DNA of 64,000 nt from Treponemataceae bacterium (GTDB lineage Bacteria > Spirochaetota > Spirochaetia > Treponematales > Treponemataceae): positions 1 to 64,000 of the forward strand of contig JAKSTR010000001.1 of NCBI GenBank assembly GCA_024402495.1, written 5' to 3'. Under the pieces are notes generated by a model that did no database searches, had not been told where the DNA came from, and saw nothing but the letters and a program-made list of their open reading frames with translations. The stretch's first letter is position 1. Each line of letters opens with the position of its first letter. Below, in pieces: positions 17,197-54,915 of the stretch. The translations under genes and the position numbers were made by a program.

Positions 17197-17688
17197 TCAG
17201 GCTTCAACCTTCAAAGATTGTGTAATTTCTTTCAAAAGTTCTTCTTCAGACGGCTTCTGTTCAAGCAAATGCCTGAATTCAGGCTTCTGGAACAAAAATG
17301 CCAGTTGTGAAAGCATTTTCAAATGTGTTTTTGTATTACTTGTAAGCAAAATAAAGAAAACGTAAACAGGACGCATATCCGGCGGGTTCATCATAACCGG
17401 CTTGTCCAAAAAGCAGACAATCAGTTTCTGGTCTGCATCGTTTGTTAAAAGCGGATAGCGCGGGTGCGGAATTGCAATACCGTTTCCAACGGCGGTACTC
17501 ATCAATTCTTCGCGGTGGCAAAGTTCTTCGTAAAGTTTATTTGTATCAAAATCTTCAGGAAAATTAAGCTTGCTGATAATACTTTTAAAAATAATTTCCG
17601 GGCGGTCACCTTTCACGTTAAAATAAACACCGCCGTTTTTAAGCAAAGACTGAATGCTTGCTTCGTTTGTATTTTCCAATTCACTCAT
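17197..17688 (-). CDS. PTS EIIA component, fructose/PtsN type
   Basis: 163 residues, a single EIIA(Fru)/PtsN domain. The phosphorylated histidine is H75 in GNGIAIPHPR, preceded by the REELMSTAVG motif. No EIIB or EIIC domain or gene is adjacent, which points to a regulatory rather than transport role, as for PtsN of the nitrogen-related PTS (family knowledge). Its start lies 8 nt inside the stop region of the upstream 494-residue gene, so the two are translationally coupled and probably act together. Confidence 0.9.
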   Translation of the reverse strand: MSELENTNEASIQSLLKNGGVYFNVKGDRPEIIFKSIISKLNFPEDFDTNKLYEELCHREELMSTAVGNGIAIPHPRYPLLTNDADQKLIVCFLDKPVMMNPPDMRPVYVFFILLTSNTKTHLKMLSQLAFLFQKPEFRHLLEQKPSEEELLKEITQSLKVEA

Positions 17689-19165
17689 GATTTTCTTCCT
17701 CCCTTTTAATCACAATGAATCTTTCACGTTGTAATTTTTTTGCTGCATCGCCAAGTTCTTCGGAAATATCGTCAAAACTATATTCCATTCCTTCCAGCGA
17801 CAGATACATTCCGTCAATATCGTCGTCAGAAACCGCACCGATAACAGATAACGATTCCAACATTCTGCCTAAATGCGAAAACAGCTGGGAAAGAACTACG
17901 AGTGGCTGTTGCGGCAATTTTTCGGGACTGGCATTTGCGGTACTTAAAGAATAAACAAAATTCAGCATTTTGCCGTATAAATCAAGAATTTTCTGCCGCA
18001 GCTTTCCATATTCATGGTCTGCAAACCAGTTATAATCGCGAGAAAGTATAACACGTCTTTTTTCTAAGTGCAATAAACAAAAAAGGCTTTCACGTTTGGG
18101 AATCTGCTCGTAATTATCCTGCAAAAGACGCGGCAAAATCGCGTCGCAGGTTTTTTCCTGCCGGTAAAGAGAATCATACAAAACCGCATCAATCAGCGAT
18201 TCGGAAACCGGAATGCCAATCGTTAAAAACAGTTTGTTCACTTCTGGCAGTTCTTCGGCATTCTGACTGTGCAGATTTGCGGCAAAGGCATCAATTTCCC
18301 TGTCTTTAAACCAAAGCCGGGTTTCTACGCCAAAATCTTTTGCCTCAATTTTTTTGCTGCGCTTAATCAGTTCTTCCACCGAACCGGCAGCTTCGCTTAC
18401 GCCAAGCTGGTCTGCAAGAACGTAGGCAATTGCAATCTGCTCGTCAATCGAAGAACGTGGACCGAAATGTTCAAAACTCTCCAGCAGTTTCTGCTCAAAA
18501 TTATCAAACCAGAGCGAACGGATAACAGTTTCCGGGGTGCTTTCAAAAATGTTGCTGCGCAAATCTTTTTTTACCGACAAATCAAAAATACCTTCCTGCC
18601 AGCTGGTCATTTTAAGAACCAGACGGTCACCGGTTTTGAAATCATTTTCTTCAAAAATCGCAGTCATGTCCAAAACCGTTGCATTCATTTTGCCCGGCAA
18701 TTCGTAATTGCTTGCAACAAAATCAAAATCTTTATTTGCCGGGTCCAAACAGAAATACTGGGGCACGAATTCTTCGCCAAAAAGTGAAAAATATTCAAAC
18801 AAATCGCCGGTATAAAGTTCAATTACCTTTTTGGGCACGGGCTTGCACTTATAATAGAAAGTAAAATCGCAGGAAAGAATATCGGGGTTGGCAAAAGGCA
18901 CGCAGCGGTGCCCGACAACTAAACATTTGCTGGAAATTTCAAACCGGGTGGGCAAAACAGAAAAAGGCTTGTTCAAAAAATAGCCCGGGCGCGAAATGTA
19001 ATAATCGCCCATTTCAAAAACTGCCACGTTGGAACCAATTAAATAACCGGCGTAGCTGGTTTCTTCGCTGTTTAATTGTAAAGTTTGCGACAATTCGTAA
19101 AGGCTGAAGGGCGTTTGCGCATTGTAAACGTATCGGGCAATTAAAGAATCGATGTCCTTTTTCAT
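17681..19165 (-). CDS. Conserved-looking protein of unknown function coupled to PTS IIA
   Basis: 494 residues; I do not recognise the family. There is no signal peptide or membrane segment, so it is probably cytoplasmic. Residues 1-45 (LIARYVYN, FSLYELSQTLQL) could form a small helix-turn-helix, and the C-terminus is acidic and helical (SEELGDAAKKL). It overlaps the PTS EIIA gene by 8 nt, so a regulatory link to phosphoryl transfer is a reasonable guess. The mRNA should start at the ATG: TTGCAA-17-TAAAAT ends 8 nt before it and no Shine-Dalgarno exists. Confidence 0.85.
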   Translation of the reverse strand: MKKDIDSLIARYVYNAQTPFSLYELSQTLQLNSEETSYAGYLIGSNVAVFEMGDYYISRPGYFLNKPFSVLPTRFEISSKCLVVGHRCVPFANPDILSCDFTFYYKCKPVPKKVIELYTGDLFEYFSLFGEEFVPQYFCLDPANKDFDFVASNYELPGKMNATVLDMTAIFEENDFKTGDRLVLKMTSWQEGIFDLSVKKDLRSNIFESTPETVIRSLWFDNFEQKLLESFEHFGPRSSIDEQIAIAYVLADQLGVSEAAGSVEELIKRSKKIEAKDFGVETRLWFKDREIDAFAANLHSQNAEELPEVNKLFLTIGIPVSESLIDAVLYDSLYRQEKTCDAILPRLLQDNYEQIPKRESLFCLLHLEKRRVILSRDYNWFADHEYGKLRQKILDLYGKMLNFVYSLSTANASPEKLPQQPLVVLSQLFSHLGRMLESLSVIGAVSDDDIDGMYLSLEGMEYSFDDISEELGDAAKKLQRERFIVIKREEENHE

Positions 19166-19202: not shown

Positions 19203-19425
19203 ATTTGCCCCAAAAGCGAAAAAATTGTTCAGTTGAATACCGAATAAACGGCGTTAGTGTATCAAAATTACCCGTTTTTTATGCATAAATATGACACAAC
19301 GCGCATTTTTGCCCGCCATGCTTCCGGCTTTCTTCTTCAACCTGAAAAACATTGGAAAACTTGCGCATTTTTCCCGTATTTTGCCCCAGAAAAACAGAAA
19401 AATTTTCGCAAAATATTTTAAAAAG

Positions 19426-19442
19426 TTGGCACGCTTTTTGCT
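19426..19442 (+). promoter_or_regulatory. Sigma-54 promoter of hsp20
   Basis: TTGGCACGCTTTTTGCT matches the -24/-12 consensus (TTGGCACG-N4-TTGCT), with GG at 19428-19429 and GC at 19440-19441, exactly 10 nt apart. Transcription would start near 19453, giving a ~65-nt leader before the hsp20 ATG. The rest of the 353-bp gap (19166-19518) holds the opposite-strand promoter at 19174-19202. I see no clear enhancer palindrome. Confidence 0.9.
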
Positions 19443-19518
19443 AATTAATATGTGTACGGTTTTTACCGCTGAAACTTCAAAAACTGCGCGTTAAGCGCTT
19501 TGACTCAGGAGGTCAAAT

Positions 19519-19971
19519 ATGAATTCAATGACACTTTTTAACCCGGCACTTGCATCAGACTTGTTTGACGCAATGGACAGAAACTTCAACCCGATGCTGC
19601 CGCTTTTTGCAGAAAATTCTGCCAGAGCAGCCTTTTTGCCAAAAGTTGACGTTCTTGAAAAGAAAGATTTGTATCTTTTGGAAATGGATTTGCCTGGTTT
19701 TACAGAAAAAGATGTTGAAATCAGTTTGAAAGAAAACCTTTTAACAATTTCTTCTGTAAAAATGGCTGAAAGCAAAACAGAAAAAGCTGAAGGCGAATAT
19801 ATTTTGAAAGAACGCAGCTCAAAACAGTTTTTGCGCCGCTTTACACTGCCAAACGACATTGACAACGAAAAAGTCAGCGCTTGCTTCAAAAACGGCGTTT
19901 TGTCTATCAGCATTCCGCGCAAAGAAGCAGCACAAAAACGCACAATCAGTATTACAACTGAAAATGCGTAA
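19519..19971 (+). CDS. Small heat-shock protein, Hsp20/alpha-crystallin family
   Basis: 150 residues. The alpha-crystallin domain (about 40-140) includes the first strand region VDVLEK, EMDLPGF and the family-defining C-terminal motif FKNGVLSI followed by PR. An isoleucine-rich tail (RTISITTE) replaces a strict IxI motif. Small heat-shock proteins hold unfolding proteins for refolding by DnaK. AGGAGGTCAAAT gives a strong ribosome site. It lies behind a near-perfect sigma-54 promoter and ends in its own terminator, so it is a monocistronic stress gene under RpoN control. Confidence 0.95.
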   Translation: MNSMTLFNPALASDLFDAMDRNFNPMLPLFAENSARAAFLPKVDVLEKKDLYLLEMDLPGFTEKDVEISLKENLLTISSVKMAESKTEKAEGEYILKERSSKQFLRRFTLPNDIDNEKVSACFKNGVLSISIPRKEAAQKRTISITTENA

Positions 19972-20048
19972 AACTGCGTATATACACGGCGCACCCGGTA
20001 AAAATATCGGGGCGCAAACTTAAGGTTTAAGCAACTGTTTTAGAACAG

Positions 20049-20089
20049 AAAGCTGGTTACGGCTGAAAAAGTCGCAGCCAGCTTTTTTT
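20049..20089 (+). terminator. Rho-independent terminator of hsp20
   Basis: AAAGCTGG and CCAGCTTT form the base of a stem closing on the GGCTGAAAAAGTCGCAGC region, followed by a run of T. Confidence 0.8.
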
Positions 20090-20167
20090 ATCGGATATTA
20101 AATATTGCGTTTTTTTTTGCTTAGTTCTCACTTACCCCAATTTTGAGTTAAAAAAAATTACAAAAAA

Positions 20168-21115: not shown

Positions 21116-22160
21116 CAGATTCTTCCTTCTGCTTTGGTAAATTTACCGCATCTTTAAGATGAGAATAATCTGTCATACCAAGATTAAGGTTCCATTCAAG
21201 AAGCTTTTCTTTGATTTCAAGAAGACTCTTCTTTCCAAAGTTTCTTGTCTTGGCAATGTCATCTTCAGTTTTGCGTGTTAATTCGCCAATAGTACGAATA
21301 TTTGCATTCTTTAGACAGTTTGAAGAACGAACTGAAAGCTCAAGTTCTTCTACAGGAGTGTTAAGCAACTGTTTGATGCGGTCATCACCATCATCAAGCT
21401 CATCTGAATGCCCAATTTCATTGTCATTGAAGTTAACAAAAATAGAAAAGTGATCTTTAATAATTTTTGCTGCTTCTGCCAATGCGTCATCTGGAGCAAT
21501 TGTTCCGTCTGTCCAAATTTCAATAATCAGCTTTTCGTAATCATTGCGCTGTCCAACACGGCAAGGTTCAATAGAATATTTTACCTTTGGAATTGGAGTG
21601 AAAATTGCATCCATCGGAATTGTACCAATTACTTCAATGTAATGCTCGTTCACTTCTGCTGGAACATAACCTCTTCCCAGGTCAATCTGAAGTTCAATCT
21701 CAAGATGAGCTGTCTCCATCATTGTCAAAACCGGGAAATCTTTGGTCAAAACTTCCAAAGAACCTTCTTTGTTGAACATATCACTTGTGACAGTTCCAGG
21801 TCCGTTAAACTCAAACAGAATTGTATCCTGTTCAATGTCTGCCGGAAGTTTAAGCCGAAGCTGTTTAAGGCTATTCAGCACCTCAAGCGTGTCTTCTACA
21901 ACATTTGGAATGGTATCAAACTCGCTTGAGATTACATGTGGCACACCGTCTGCATCATAAGATGTGATGCGAACAGCTGTTATTGCGTAGCCCTGAATTG
22001 ATGACAACAATACTCTGCGCAGGGTATTTCCTACTGTTGTACCGAAACCAATTTCAAAAGGGTAAGCAACGAACTTTCCGTATGAAGAAGTATTTTCTTC
22101 ATGTTCAAAGTTAACACCTTTAGGTTTCTTAAATCCTTTAAGCAGATTTTTGCGGGCCAT
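21105..22160 (-). CDS. rpoA: RNA polymerase alpha subunit
   Basis: 351 residues. The N-terminal assembly domain is about 15-235 ([25 protein letters not shown]). An acidic linker follows, then the C-terminal domain (about 265-330) with [21 protein letters not shown] and [14 protein letters not shown], which contacts UP elements and activators. Slightly longer than E. coli alpha (329). It lies 9 nt after rpsD and overlaps rplQ. Confidence 0.97.
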
Positions 22161-51733: not shown

Positions 51734-51777
51734 CTAACAACAGCCGGCAGAAATTCAAAAAACTTCCGCCGGTACAA

Positions 51778-51884
51778 TTTTTCAGGGAAAGGTGAAAATC
51801 CTTAACCGGCGGTAAAGCCCGCGAGCGTTTTTCGCAGATCCGGTGAAACTCCGGAGCCGACAGTATAGTCTGGATGGAAGAAAA
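51778..51884 (+). promoter_or_regulatory. FMN riboswitch (RFN element)
   Basis: The conserved RFN segments occur in order: AGGGAAAGGTGAAAATCC, AACCGGCGGTAAAGCC, CGCGAGCG, GATCCGGTGAAACTCCGG, GCCGACAGTATAGTC and TGGATGGAAGA. Its final P1 strand contains the GGAAGA that must serve as the ribD ribosome site, and the ATG follows 2 nt later. Binding of FMN should close P1 and block translation. I see no separate terminator between the aptamer and ribD. Confidence 0.97.
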
Positions 51885-51886
51885 AC

Positions 51887-53041
51887 ATGCAAGATACCGA
51901 TTTTATGCGCCGTGCAATTGAACTTGCAAAACTCGGCACAGGTCACACAAATCCCAATCCGCTGGTTGGCGCAGTAATTGTAAAAAATAATCAGATAGTC
52001 GGCGAAGGTTTTCATCAGACCTACGGCGATTTGCATGCCGAACGCAACGCAATAAAAAACTGCATGCAAAATCACCCGGAAAATTTCAGCGAACTTTTAG
52101 CAAATTCAACTATTTACGTTACTTTGGAACCATGCTGCCACACCGGCAAGCAGCCGCCCTGCGTAGAAGCTATAATGCAGAACAAAATTGCAAAAGTTGT
52201 CATCGGCAGCCGTGACCCGAATCCGCTGGTAAGCGGCAAAGGCGCGGCAATTCTGCGCAGCAGCGGCATCACCGTAATTGAAGATTTCTTAAAAGACGAA
52301 TGCGATAAACTGAATCCGGTATTTTTTCACTACATTCAGACAAAAACGCCTTACATTGCACTGAAATTTGCCCAGTCCGTAGACGGAAAAATTGCCAGCA
52401 AAACCGGCGATTCTAAATGGATAAGCAACGAAAAAAGCCGTCTTTTTACCCACGAACTGCGCAACCAGTACACGGCAATTTTAATCGGTTCAAATACTGC
52501 CGCCGCAGACGCCCCGACTCTGAACTGCCGCATTGAAAAAATAAACGGCAGAACGCCGCGAAATCCAGTCCGCATAGTTTTAAGCACGCACTTAGATTTA
52601 AATATAGCAGGCAATCTGGTAAAAACCGCAAGGCAAATTCCGCTGATTGCAGTTTGCACAAACGAAAGCTTAGCAGACCCAAAAGTTCTGGAGAAAAAAC
52701 AGGCTTTGGAAAGCTGCGGCGCAACAGTTCTGGCAGTTGCCCAGAAGGCAAACAGAATAGACCTTGCAGACCTTTGCAAAAAACTTGGCGAACAGAAAAT
52801 CGATTCCGTGCTGGTAGAAGGCGGCGGCGAAGTTTTGGGCAGCTTTGCAGACGAAAAGCTTTTTAACCGCGTTTACTGCTTTACCGGCTGCAAAATTATT
52901 GGCGGCGCAGGCAAGCCCAGCATAAAAGGCGAAGGCATAGAAAAAATTTCAAATGCAGTACCGTTAAAGCTGGAAGAAATAAAGCAGTTTGATGACGACG
53001 TTCTGCTGGTTTATTCCAAAAAAGAAAGCAGCGAGGCATAA
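51887..53041 (+). CDS. ribD: Bifunctional riboflavin biosynthesis deaminase/reductase
   Basis: 384 residues. The N-terminal deaminase has the zinc residues H50-A-E and the PCCHTGKQPPC motif (Cys83/84 and Cys92). The C-terminal reductase (about 150-384) has LKFAQSVDGKIAS, SNTAAADAPTLNCR and LVEGGGEVLGSF for NADPH and substrate binding. It carries out the second and third steps from GTP to lumazine. It is translated from within the FMN riboswitch and sits 1 nt before ribE. Confidence 0.96.
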   Translation: MQDTDFMRRAIELAKLGTGHTNPNPLVGAVIVKNNQIVGEGFHQTYGDLHAERNAIKNCMQNHPENFSELLANSTIYVTLEPCCHTGKQPPCVEAIMQNKIAKVVIGSRDPNPLVSGKGAAILRSSGITVIEDFLKDECDKLNPVFFHYIQTKTPYIALKFAQSVDGKIASKTGDSKWISNEKSRLFTHELRNQYTAILIGSNTAAADAPTLNCRIEKINGRTPRNPVRIVLSTHLDLNIAGNLVKTARQIPLIAVCTNESLADPKVLEKKQALESCGATVLAVAQKANRIDLADLCKKLGEQKIDSVLVEGGGEVLGSFADEKLFNRVYCFTGCKIIGGAGKPSIKGEGIEKISNAVPLKLEEIKQFDDDVLLVYSKKESSEA

Positions 53042-53709: not shown

Positions 53710-54915
53710 ATGGAAGACTTTAAGTATTCAACAATTGAACAGGCGCTGGAAGATTTGCGCGCCGGTAAAGTAATTCTGGTAAGCGACGACCCCGACCGTG
53801 AAAACGAAGGCGATTTTATCTGTGCCGCGGAACACGCAACCGGCGAAAACATCAATTTTATGGCAAGCGTGGGCAAAGGCTTAATCTGCATGCCGATGAC
53901 CGGCGAACTGGCAGAAAAATTAAACGTTCCGCAGATGGTAAGCGAAAATACCGATAACCACTGCACGGCTTTTACCGTAAGCATCGACCACAAAGACACC
54001 ACAACCGGCATCAGCGCATTTGAACGTTCCGTTACCGCAATAAAAGCCGTTGCCGACGATGCAAAGCCGCAGGATTTCCGCCGTCCGGGTCACATGTTTC
54101 CGCTGGTGGCAAAAAAAGGCGGCGTACTGGTGCGCAACGGCCACACCGAAGCAACAGTAGACCTTATGCGACTTGCAGGGCTTAAGCCGTGCGGTCTTTG
54201 CTGCGAAATAATGGCAGACGACGGCAACATGCTGCGCACTCCCGGCTTAATTGAACTTGCGGAAAAATACAAGCTTTCGTTTATAAACATAAAAGATTTG
54301 CAGGATTATATCCGCCTGCACGAAAAGCACGTTGTTCGCGAAGCTGAAGTAAAACTGCCGACGGCATACGGCGAGTTTAAGGCATACGGCTATGTAAGCG
54401 ACATTACGGGCGAACATCACGTGGCGCTTGTAAAAGGCGAAATCGGCGACGGCTTAAACGTGCTTTGCCGCGTTCATTCAGAATGCCTGACCGGCGACGT
54501 GTTCGGTTCAATGCGCTGCGACTGCGGTCCGCAGCTGGAACAGGCGCTTAGACAGATTGAAGCAGAAGGAAGAGGCGTGCTTTTGTACATGCGGCAGGAA
54601 GGTCGCGGAATCGGACTGATAAACAAACTGAAAGCCTACGAATTACAGGAACAGGGATTTGATACCGTAGACGCAAACATAAAGCTGGGCTTTGCCCCGG
54701 ATTTGCGCGAATACTGGATTGGTGCCCAGATTTTGCGCGATTTGGGCATAAAGGAACTGCGGCTGCTTACAAACAACCCGAGCAAAATTTACGGGCTTGA
54801 CGGTCTTGGGCTTAAAATAAAAGAACGCGTACCGATAGAAATTGCCGCGCAGAAATACGACAAATTTTATCTGGATACAAAAGCCCGGCGCATGGGGCAT
54901 ATTTTTAACAGCTAG
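53710..54915 (+). CDS. ribBA: Bifunctional DHBP synthase/GTP cyclohydrolase II
   Basis: 401 residues. The N-terminal 3,4-dihydroxybutanone-phosphate synthase has [22 protein letters not shown] and [10 protein letters not shown]. The C-terminal GTP cyclohydrolase II has the zinc cysteines [24 protein letters not shown] and the catalytic region [11 protein letters not shown]. It supplies both precursors of the lumazine. It lies 4 nt after ribE. Confidence 0.97.

Follow-up and report, generated by a model that had tools for sequence, protein, structure and literature searches.

The window analysed here is a stretch of 64,000 nucleotides from the genome of a Treponemataceae bacterium (G000; 2.97 Mb, 97% complete), which was compared with relatives from Treponema and allied Spirochaetota. 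It harbours hsp20, a gene encoding a small heat-shock protein, together with a -24/-12 promoter of the sigma-54 type, two upstream palindromes and the transcript elements listed in Table 1. Orthologues of hsp20 were found in 146 of 149 relatives. Divergent from hsp20, the minus strand encodes a 494-aa protein (17681-19165) without a match in Pfam or NCBIfam, followed by a PTS EIIA-2 gene (17197-17688). Large similar-looking proteins were also divergent from hsp20 in the relatives G011 and G009.

The plus strand reads TTGGCACGCTTTTTGCT at 19426-19442. The GG is located at 19428-19429 and the GC at 19440-19441, which gives a spacing of exactly N10, and 76 nt lie between the promoter end and the ATG of hsp20 at 19519. 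The preliminary description had placed a near-consensus -24/-12 site here with this spacing and this distance; both were confirmed from the sequence, and the site is an exact match to the consensus. It had further described the promoter as isolated, and this was borne out, as TGGCACGN4TTGC is matched exactly only once in the window. A first-order Markov model predicts 0.036 such sites there by chance on both strands, or about 9e-5 on the sense strand of a 350-bp upstream region. Scored with an approximate sigma-54 weight matrix, by which a site was called at 13 bits or more, the hsp20 site reached 20.3 bits. The runners-up in the window scored 15.8 bits (at 21939, antisense within rpoA) and 14.6 bits (at 54563, reverse-strand numbering). 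As a check on the matrix, it also picked out a strong site upstream of one Borrelia rpoS gene.

Table 1. Features of the hsp20 locus, with positions as numbered in the window.
Feature	Position	Strand	Basis
Upstream activating sequence copy 1, TGTATCAAAATTACCCG, 11/14 to palindrome TGTRTCANNNTGAYACA	19258..19274	.	Motif from relatives' upstream regions
Upstream activating sequence copy 2, TGCATAAATATGACACA, 12/14	19282..19298	.	Motif from relatives' upstream regions
Predicted sigma-54 -24/-12 promoter of hsp20, TGGCACGCTTTTTGCT (TGGCACG-CTTT-TTGCT)	19427..19442	+	Exact consensus and conservation
Predicted transcription start region GTGT, +1 about 19453	19452..19455	+	Spacing from -12; relatives' GTG-like start; hairpin peak
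5'-terminal mRNA hairpin CGGT-TTTT-ACCG	19457..19468	+	Fold and relatives' folding z
Shine-Dalgarno AGGAGG of hsp20	19508..19513	+	Sequence
hsp20, Hsp20/alpha-crystallin small heat-shock protein, 150 aa	19519..19971	+	PF00011, E 3.5e-25, 88.5 bits (cut-off 20.8)
Terminator-like hairpin followed by U7	20049..20090	+	Fold of 19972-20100

Transcription had been expected to begin near 19453, and this agrees with the prediction obtained when C19441 is taken as the -12 position, which puts +1 at 19453. A GTG-like predicted start is kept in the relatives. RNAs folded from the predicted +1 had a mean z of -1.86 +/- 0.18 (73 relatives), and shifting the fold window 15 nt either way reduced the signal to -0.53 and -0.61. 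The stems of this hairpin vary in sequence between genomes. A hairpin thus forms where the mRNA is predicted to begin, which supports a transcription start near 19453. Hairpins at the 5' terminus often stabilise mRNA. At the other end, the terminator-like hairpin and its U7 suggest that hsp20 would be transcribed as a single gene.

The sigma-54 site upstream of hsp20 is widely conserved. Within the family it was present at 67 of 69 loci (29/29 loci with enough upstream sequence and 38/40 further ones), in the other families of the order at 20 of 20, and in a sample from other families of the class likewise at 20 of 20. Among named genomes, a set overlapping with those of the family and the order, the site was found at 76 of 77 loci, including those of T. 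putidum and T. lecithinolyticum; the sole miss was the hsp20 of T. zioleckii. These loci share ancestry and the counts are not independent. The DNA around the promoters is nonetheless diverged, since 79 of 84 regions passed a redundancy filter that dropped any region with more than 25% of its 9-mers in common with one already kept.

TGACACA and its variants dominated the k-mers of the 180 nt preceding the family promoters, and the half-sites TGAYACA/TGTRTCA occurred 132 times against 6.0 expected. They form a palindromic enhancer, TGTRTCAWWWTGAYACA (TGT-N11-ACA), whose sites precede the -24 element by a median of 180 nt. Matches to at least 11 of the 14 positions numbered 120 in the upstream regions of the relatives' hsp20 genes (4.3 expected), and matches to at least 12 numbered 79 (0.35 expected). 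Among the class-level hsp20 regions outside the set from which the motif was derived, 18 of 20 carried at least one copy. In the window, the centre of copy 2 lies 24 bp from that of copy 1 and 138 bp from the GG of the -24 element. A conserved upstream activating sequence, taken as the mark of an enhancer-dependent gene when found within 80-300 nt upstream, is thus present at hsp20. NtrC/NifA-type enhancers are likewise inverted repeats that begin with TGT and end with ACA, and they often occur in multiple copies some 100-280 nt before a -24/-12 promoter. In its consensus, the motif found here is distinct from the NtrC and NifA sites.

A promoter match of this kind might also arise by coincidence and have no function. 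In G000, sites allowing up to one mismatch were as frequent as those of a reversed-pattern control (39 and 40, respectively) and were left unused for this reason, and exact matches also exist inside coding regions. Conservation throughout the class in diverged upstream regions, with a linked enhancer and a 5'-end hairpin, rules such a coincidence out for all practical purposes. The proposal that hsp20 is under sigma-54 control is accordingly upheld by the conservation of the promoter, the conserved upstream enhancer and the hairpin at the predicted start; as far as sequence can tell, this control is close to certain.

The usual explanations for the control of small heat-shock genes are sigma-32, HrcA and RNA thermometers. 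We considered it very improbable that hsp20 is mainly governed by sigma-70, HrcA or a thermometer with the sigma-54 site in a secondary role, as in E. coli ibpB. In co-culture, T. denticola raises its hsp20 along with dnaK, grpE and clpB (PMC3914990), as such a reading would have it, and the Shine-Dalgarno sequence of hsp20 in the window is able to form a 7-bp hairpin. However, neither a sense-strand sigma-70-like promoter upstream of hsp20, nor CIRCE (TTAGCACTC-N9-GAGTGCTAA) anywhere in the window at up to three mismatches, nor excess folding of the Shine-Dalgarno region (z -0.20 +/- 0.12, 49 relatives) was found. One imperfect CIRCE copy occurs elsewhere in G000. An Rfam thermometer search of the hsp20 leader gave no match at E<=1, and with no folding excess across the relatives either, the RNA thermometer was rejected and the 7-bp hairpin treated as incidental.

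Outside the class, the 19 usable hsp20 regions contained a sigma-54 site in 7 cases and a CIRCE half-site in 10; two contained neither and none contained both. Control by HrcA and CIRCE, which is likely for hsp20 in other Spirochaetota, differs from the situation in the window in being repressor-based, and in the phylum the hsp20 regions with CIRCE were devoid of the sigma-54 site. A sigma-54 promoter also occurs at E. coli ibpB, a small heat-shock gene (as cited in PMC4370416). E. coli has a sigma-32 promoter as well, whereas no sigma-70-type or CIRCE element was seen at hsp20 here, and most of the class shares this arrangement. Production of the chaperone thus appears to be tied to a dedicated signalling system instead of the usual heat-shock regulators.

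The hsp20 promoter is not the only one of its kind in the genome. Five exact matches were found in G000. Three of them fall within coding sequence and were excluded; the remaining two precede hsp20 and a gene of the sigma-70 family at C79:27680, divergent from groES. The two promoters have a long identical core in common, with GTGT at the start. A sigma-54 site precedes the orthologues of the sigma-factor gene in 28 of 29 relatives, and promoter and enhancer are both kept before this gene across the order. The only two enhancer sites in G000 with up to one mismatch are both at the sigma-factor locus. In eight genomes searched, whenever a fetched enhancer match was followed at short distance by a strong sigma-54 site, the locus was hsp20 or the sigma-factor gene (such pairs occurred in G000, G009, G011 and G045). 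Other enhancer matches in the relatives were discarded as targets, as they were mostly within coding sequence and without a sigma-54 site. The conserved regulon apparently consists of hsp20 and the sigma-70-family gene, and the promoter, common to this other gene and to other genomes, appears to be ancestral over most of the class Spirochaetia. In a relative with a 1.1-Mb genome, probably T. pallidum-like (G026), hsp20, the sigma gene and the enhancer are lost, and rpoN and two activators are kept. The sigma factor scored 214.7 bits against the RpoS equivalog model (cut-off 378.7). In BLAST comparisons, its score was 150 bits against one Borrelia sigma-70 protein, and 111 bits against the Borrelia protein whose gene bears a sigma-54 promoter.

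A search for rpoN and for enhancer-binding proteins, suggested in the preliminary description, found both in the genome, so that a lack of rpoN, given there as a ground for refutation, does not apply. The rpoN product has the AID, core-binding and DNA-binding domains (PF00309, PF04963 and PF04552) and scores above the cut-off of TIGR02395. Three proteins contain the sigma-54 activator domain. L001 is a response regulator of the Rrp2 type, with a receiver, an AAA+ domain with GAFTGA and a Fis-type HTH, and is the only protein in G000 with both GAFTGA and a DNA-binding domain. L002 (on C112) has an intact sigma-54 interaction domain and no detectable HTH or other DNA-binding domain; its N-terminal domain is without assignment, and a STAS-domain gene is located nearby. 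L003 (on C170), encoded downstream of rpsA, has kept AAA and HTH parts and has lost GAFTGA throughout the genus g1, suggesting a change of function. Since L002 is without an HTH and L003 without GAFTGA, L001 is by elimination the only complete DNA-binding activator, and it is the probable activator of hsp20.

The gene for L001 is the last in a cluster murG-cvpA-holB-kinase-rrp2 that is kept in most relatives. The kinase encoded directly before it is soluble, with matches to HisKA, HATPase and, weakly, PAS. This resembles T. denticola, where Rrp2 has been described as an unstudied, predicted sigma-54 activator paired with the PAS kinase Hpk2 (PMC12070737). G021 and G075 each have a perfect enhancer just upstream of the operon, and G009 has a weaker copy; the perfect palindromes are directly upstream of murG (L331 7011-7027 and L330 5340-5356), with no obvious sigma-54 site in G075. 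Elimination, together with these copies at the rrp2 operon of two relatives, points to Rrp2 as the protein that would bind the palindrome. The idea that rrp2 generally regulates itself was rejected: two of 20 relatives had the operon enhancer and one a weak copy, G000 had none, and the occurrence is thus limited to genus g15 plus one weak case.

Sigma-54 control may also be right and the activator another one, in which case a protein of the L002 type would act from solution, or a protein missing from the assembly would act, and the palindrome would bind a separate regulator. The L002 type is kept in the genus with its sigma-54 interaction domain intact, some relatives have further sigma-54 activators, and since G000 is 97% complete, one more could be missing from it. 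Activation by Rrp2 at Borrelia rpoS has moreover been reported to be enhancer-independent (Blevins 2009, as cited in PMC3037356), implying that binding and activation are separable. On the other hand, a palindrome conserved 100-280 nt upstream of most of these promoters is the mark left by a DNA-bound activator, and no DNA-binding domain was detected in L002. We therefore hold another activator to be unlikely, though to be kept in mind.

The best overall explanation, in which we have fairly good confidence, is that sigma-54, a palindrome-bound activator of the Rrp2 type and a PAS kinase act on hsp20 and the sigma-factor gene. RNA polymerase with sigma-54 would transcribe hsp20 from the promoter at 19427-19442. 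An enhancer-binding protein, seated on the palindromes at 19258-19274 and 19282-19298, would loop to the polymerase and melt the promoter through ATP hydrolysis. This protein would most likely be L001, presumably phosphorylated by the soluble PAS histidine kinase of the adjoining gene. The same circuit would drive the sigma-70-family gene beside groES, so that one signal would raise both the holdase chaperone and an alternative sigma factor. As for the signal, Hpk2 of T. denticola responds to the oxygen state (PMC12070737); this and the rise of hsp20 with dnaK, grpE and clpB are compatible with several inputs. Against this explanation, the enhancer copies of the window are imperfect, with 11 and 12 of 14 positions, those at the rrp2 operon are confined to the few relatives named above, and a Borrelia-like genome has an Rrp2 orthologue, yet no sigma-54 site upstream of its hsp20.

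The Rrp2-RpoN-RpoS system of Borrelia burgdorferi is alike in that an activator of the Rrp2 type and RpoN drive a sigma-70-family gene. L001 is orthologous to Borrelia Rrp2, with 57% identity over its length (448 aa) to the Rrp2-like protein of a Borrelia genome, and rpoS in that genome has a strong sigma-54 site, TGGCATGATTTTTGCA. This rpoS differs from the Treponema-type targets, which have an enhancer, in being without the palindrome, in line with the enhancer-independent activation cited above. Furthermore, the predicted targets in the Treponema-type genomes include hsp20, and the sigma-54 site is absent from Borrelia hsp20. Upstream of the Borrelia-like hsp20 (L419 4700-5300), we noticed a sigma-54-like stretch, TGGTATG...TTGCA, whose elements are 4 nt too far apart; it may be the remnant of a promoter.

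The evolutionary history may be depicted as follows, with slightly less than even confidence: A two-target stress circuit ancestral to the Spirochaetia, in which a PAS kinase and Rrp2 act through sigma-54 and the palindrome on Hsp20 and a sigma factor of the group-2 type, would have replaced the control of hsp20 by HrcA and CIRCE found elsewhere in the phylum. The Rrp2-RpoN-RpoS virulence pathway of Borrelia would then be a reduced descendant, from which the enhancer and the hsp20 branch were lost.

A search of the literature, confined to open-licence PMC papers, gave no report of sigma-54 or enhancer control of hsp20 in the Spirochaetia. Sigma-54 at a small heat-shock gene is known from the cited precedent of E. 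coli ibpB; what is new is that the site is conserved over most of the class and accompanied by an enhancer, that hsp20 is coupled to a sigma factor, and that the site alternates with CIRCE. Most of one bacterial class thus appears to place its small heat-shock protein under sigma-54 with one enhancer motif and this coupling. Candidate targets and a DNA site are gained for a regulator of the Rrp2 type, and a possible origin is suggested for the Borrelia RpoN-RpoS cascade. The phylum also offers a natural comparison between a repressor (CIRCE) and an activator (sigma-54) in control of the same gene.

Some other RNA elements were noted. Directly 3' of hsp20, positions 19978-20064 of the plus strand are strongly structured (z -5.1) and match the c-di-GMP-I riboswitch below threshold (18.2 bits, cut-off 35); the match overlaps the terminator-like hairpin, and no plus-strand gene is evident downstream of it. 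Between the sigma-54 promoter and hsp20, the relative G005 has an element resembling TD-1 RNA, with a score below the cut-off (49.6 bits, cut-off 64.5; L030 1372-1492, plus strand). Elsewhere in the window, an FMN riboswitch was detected at 51774-51889 on the plus strand with 112.6 bits.
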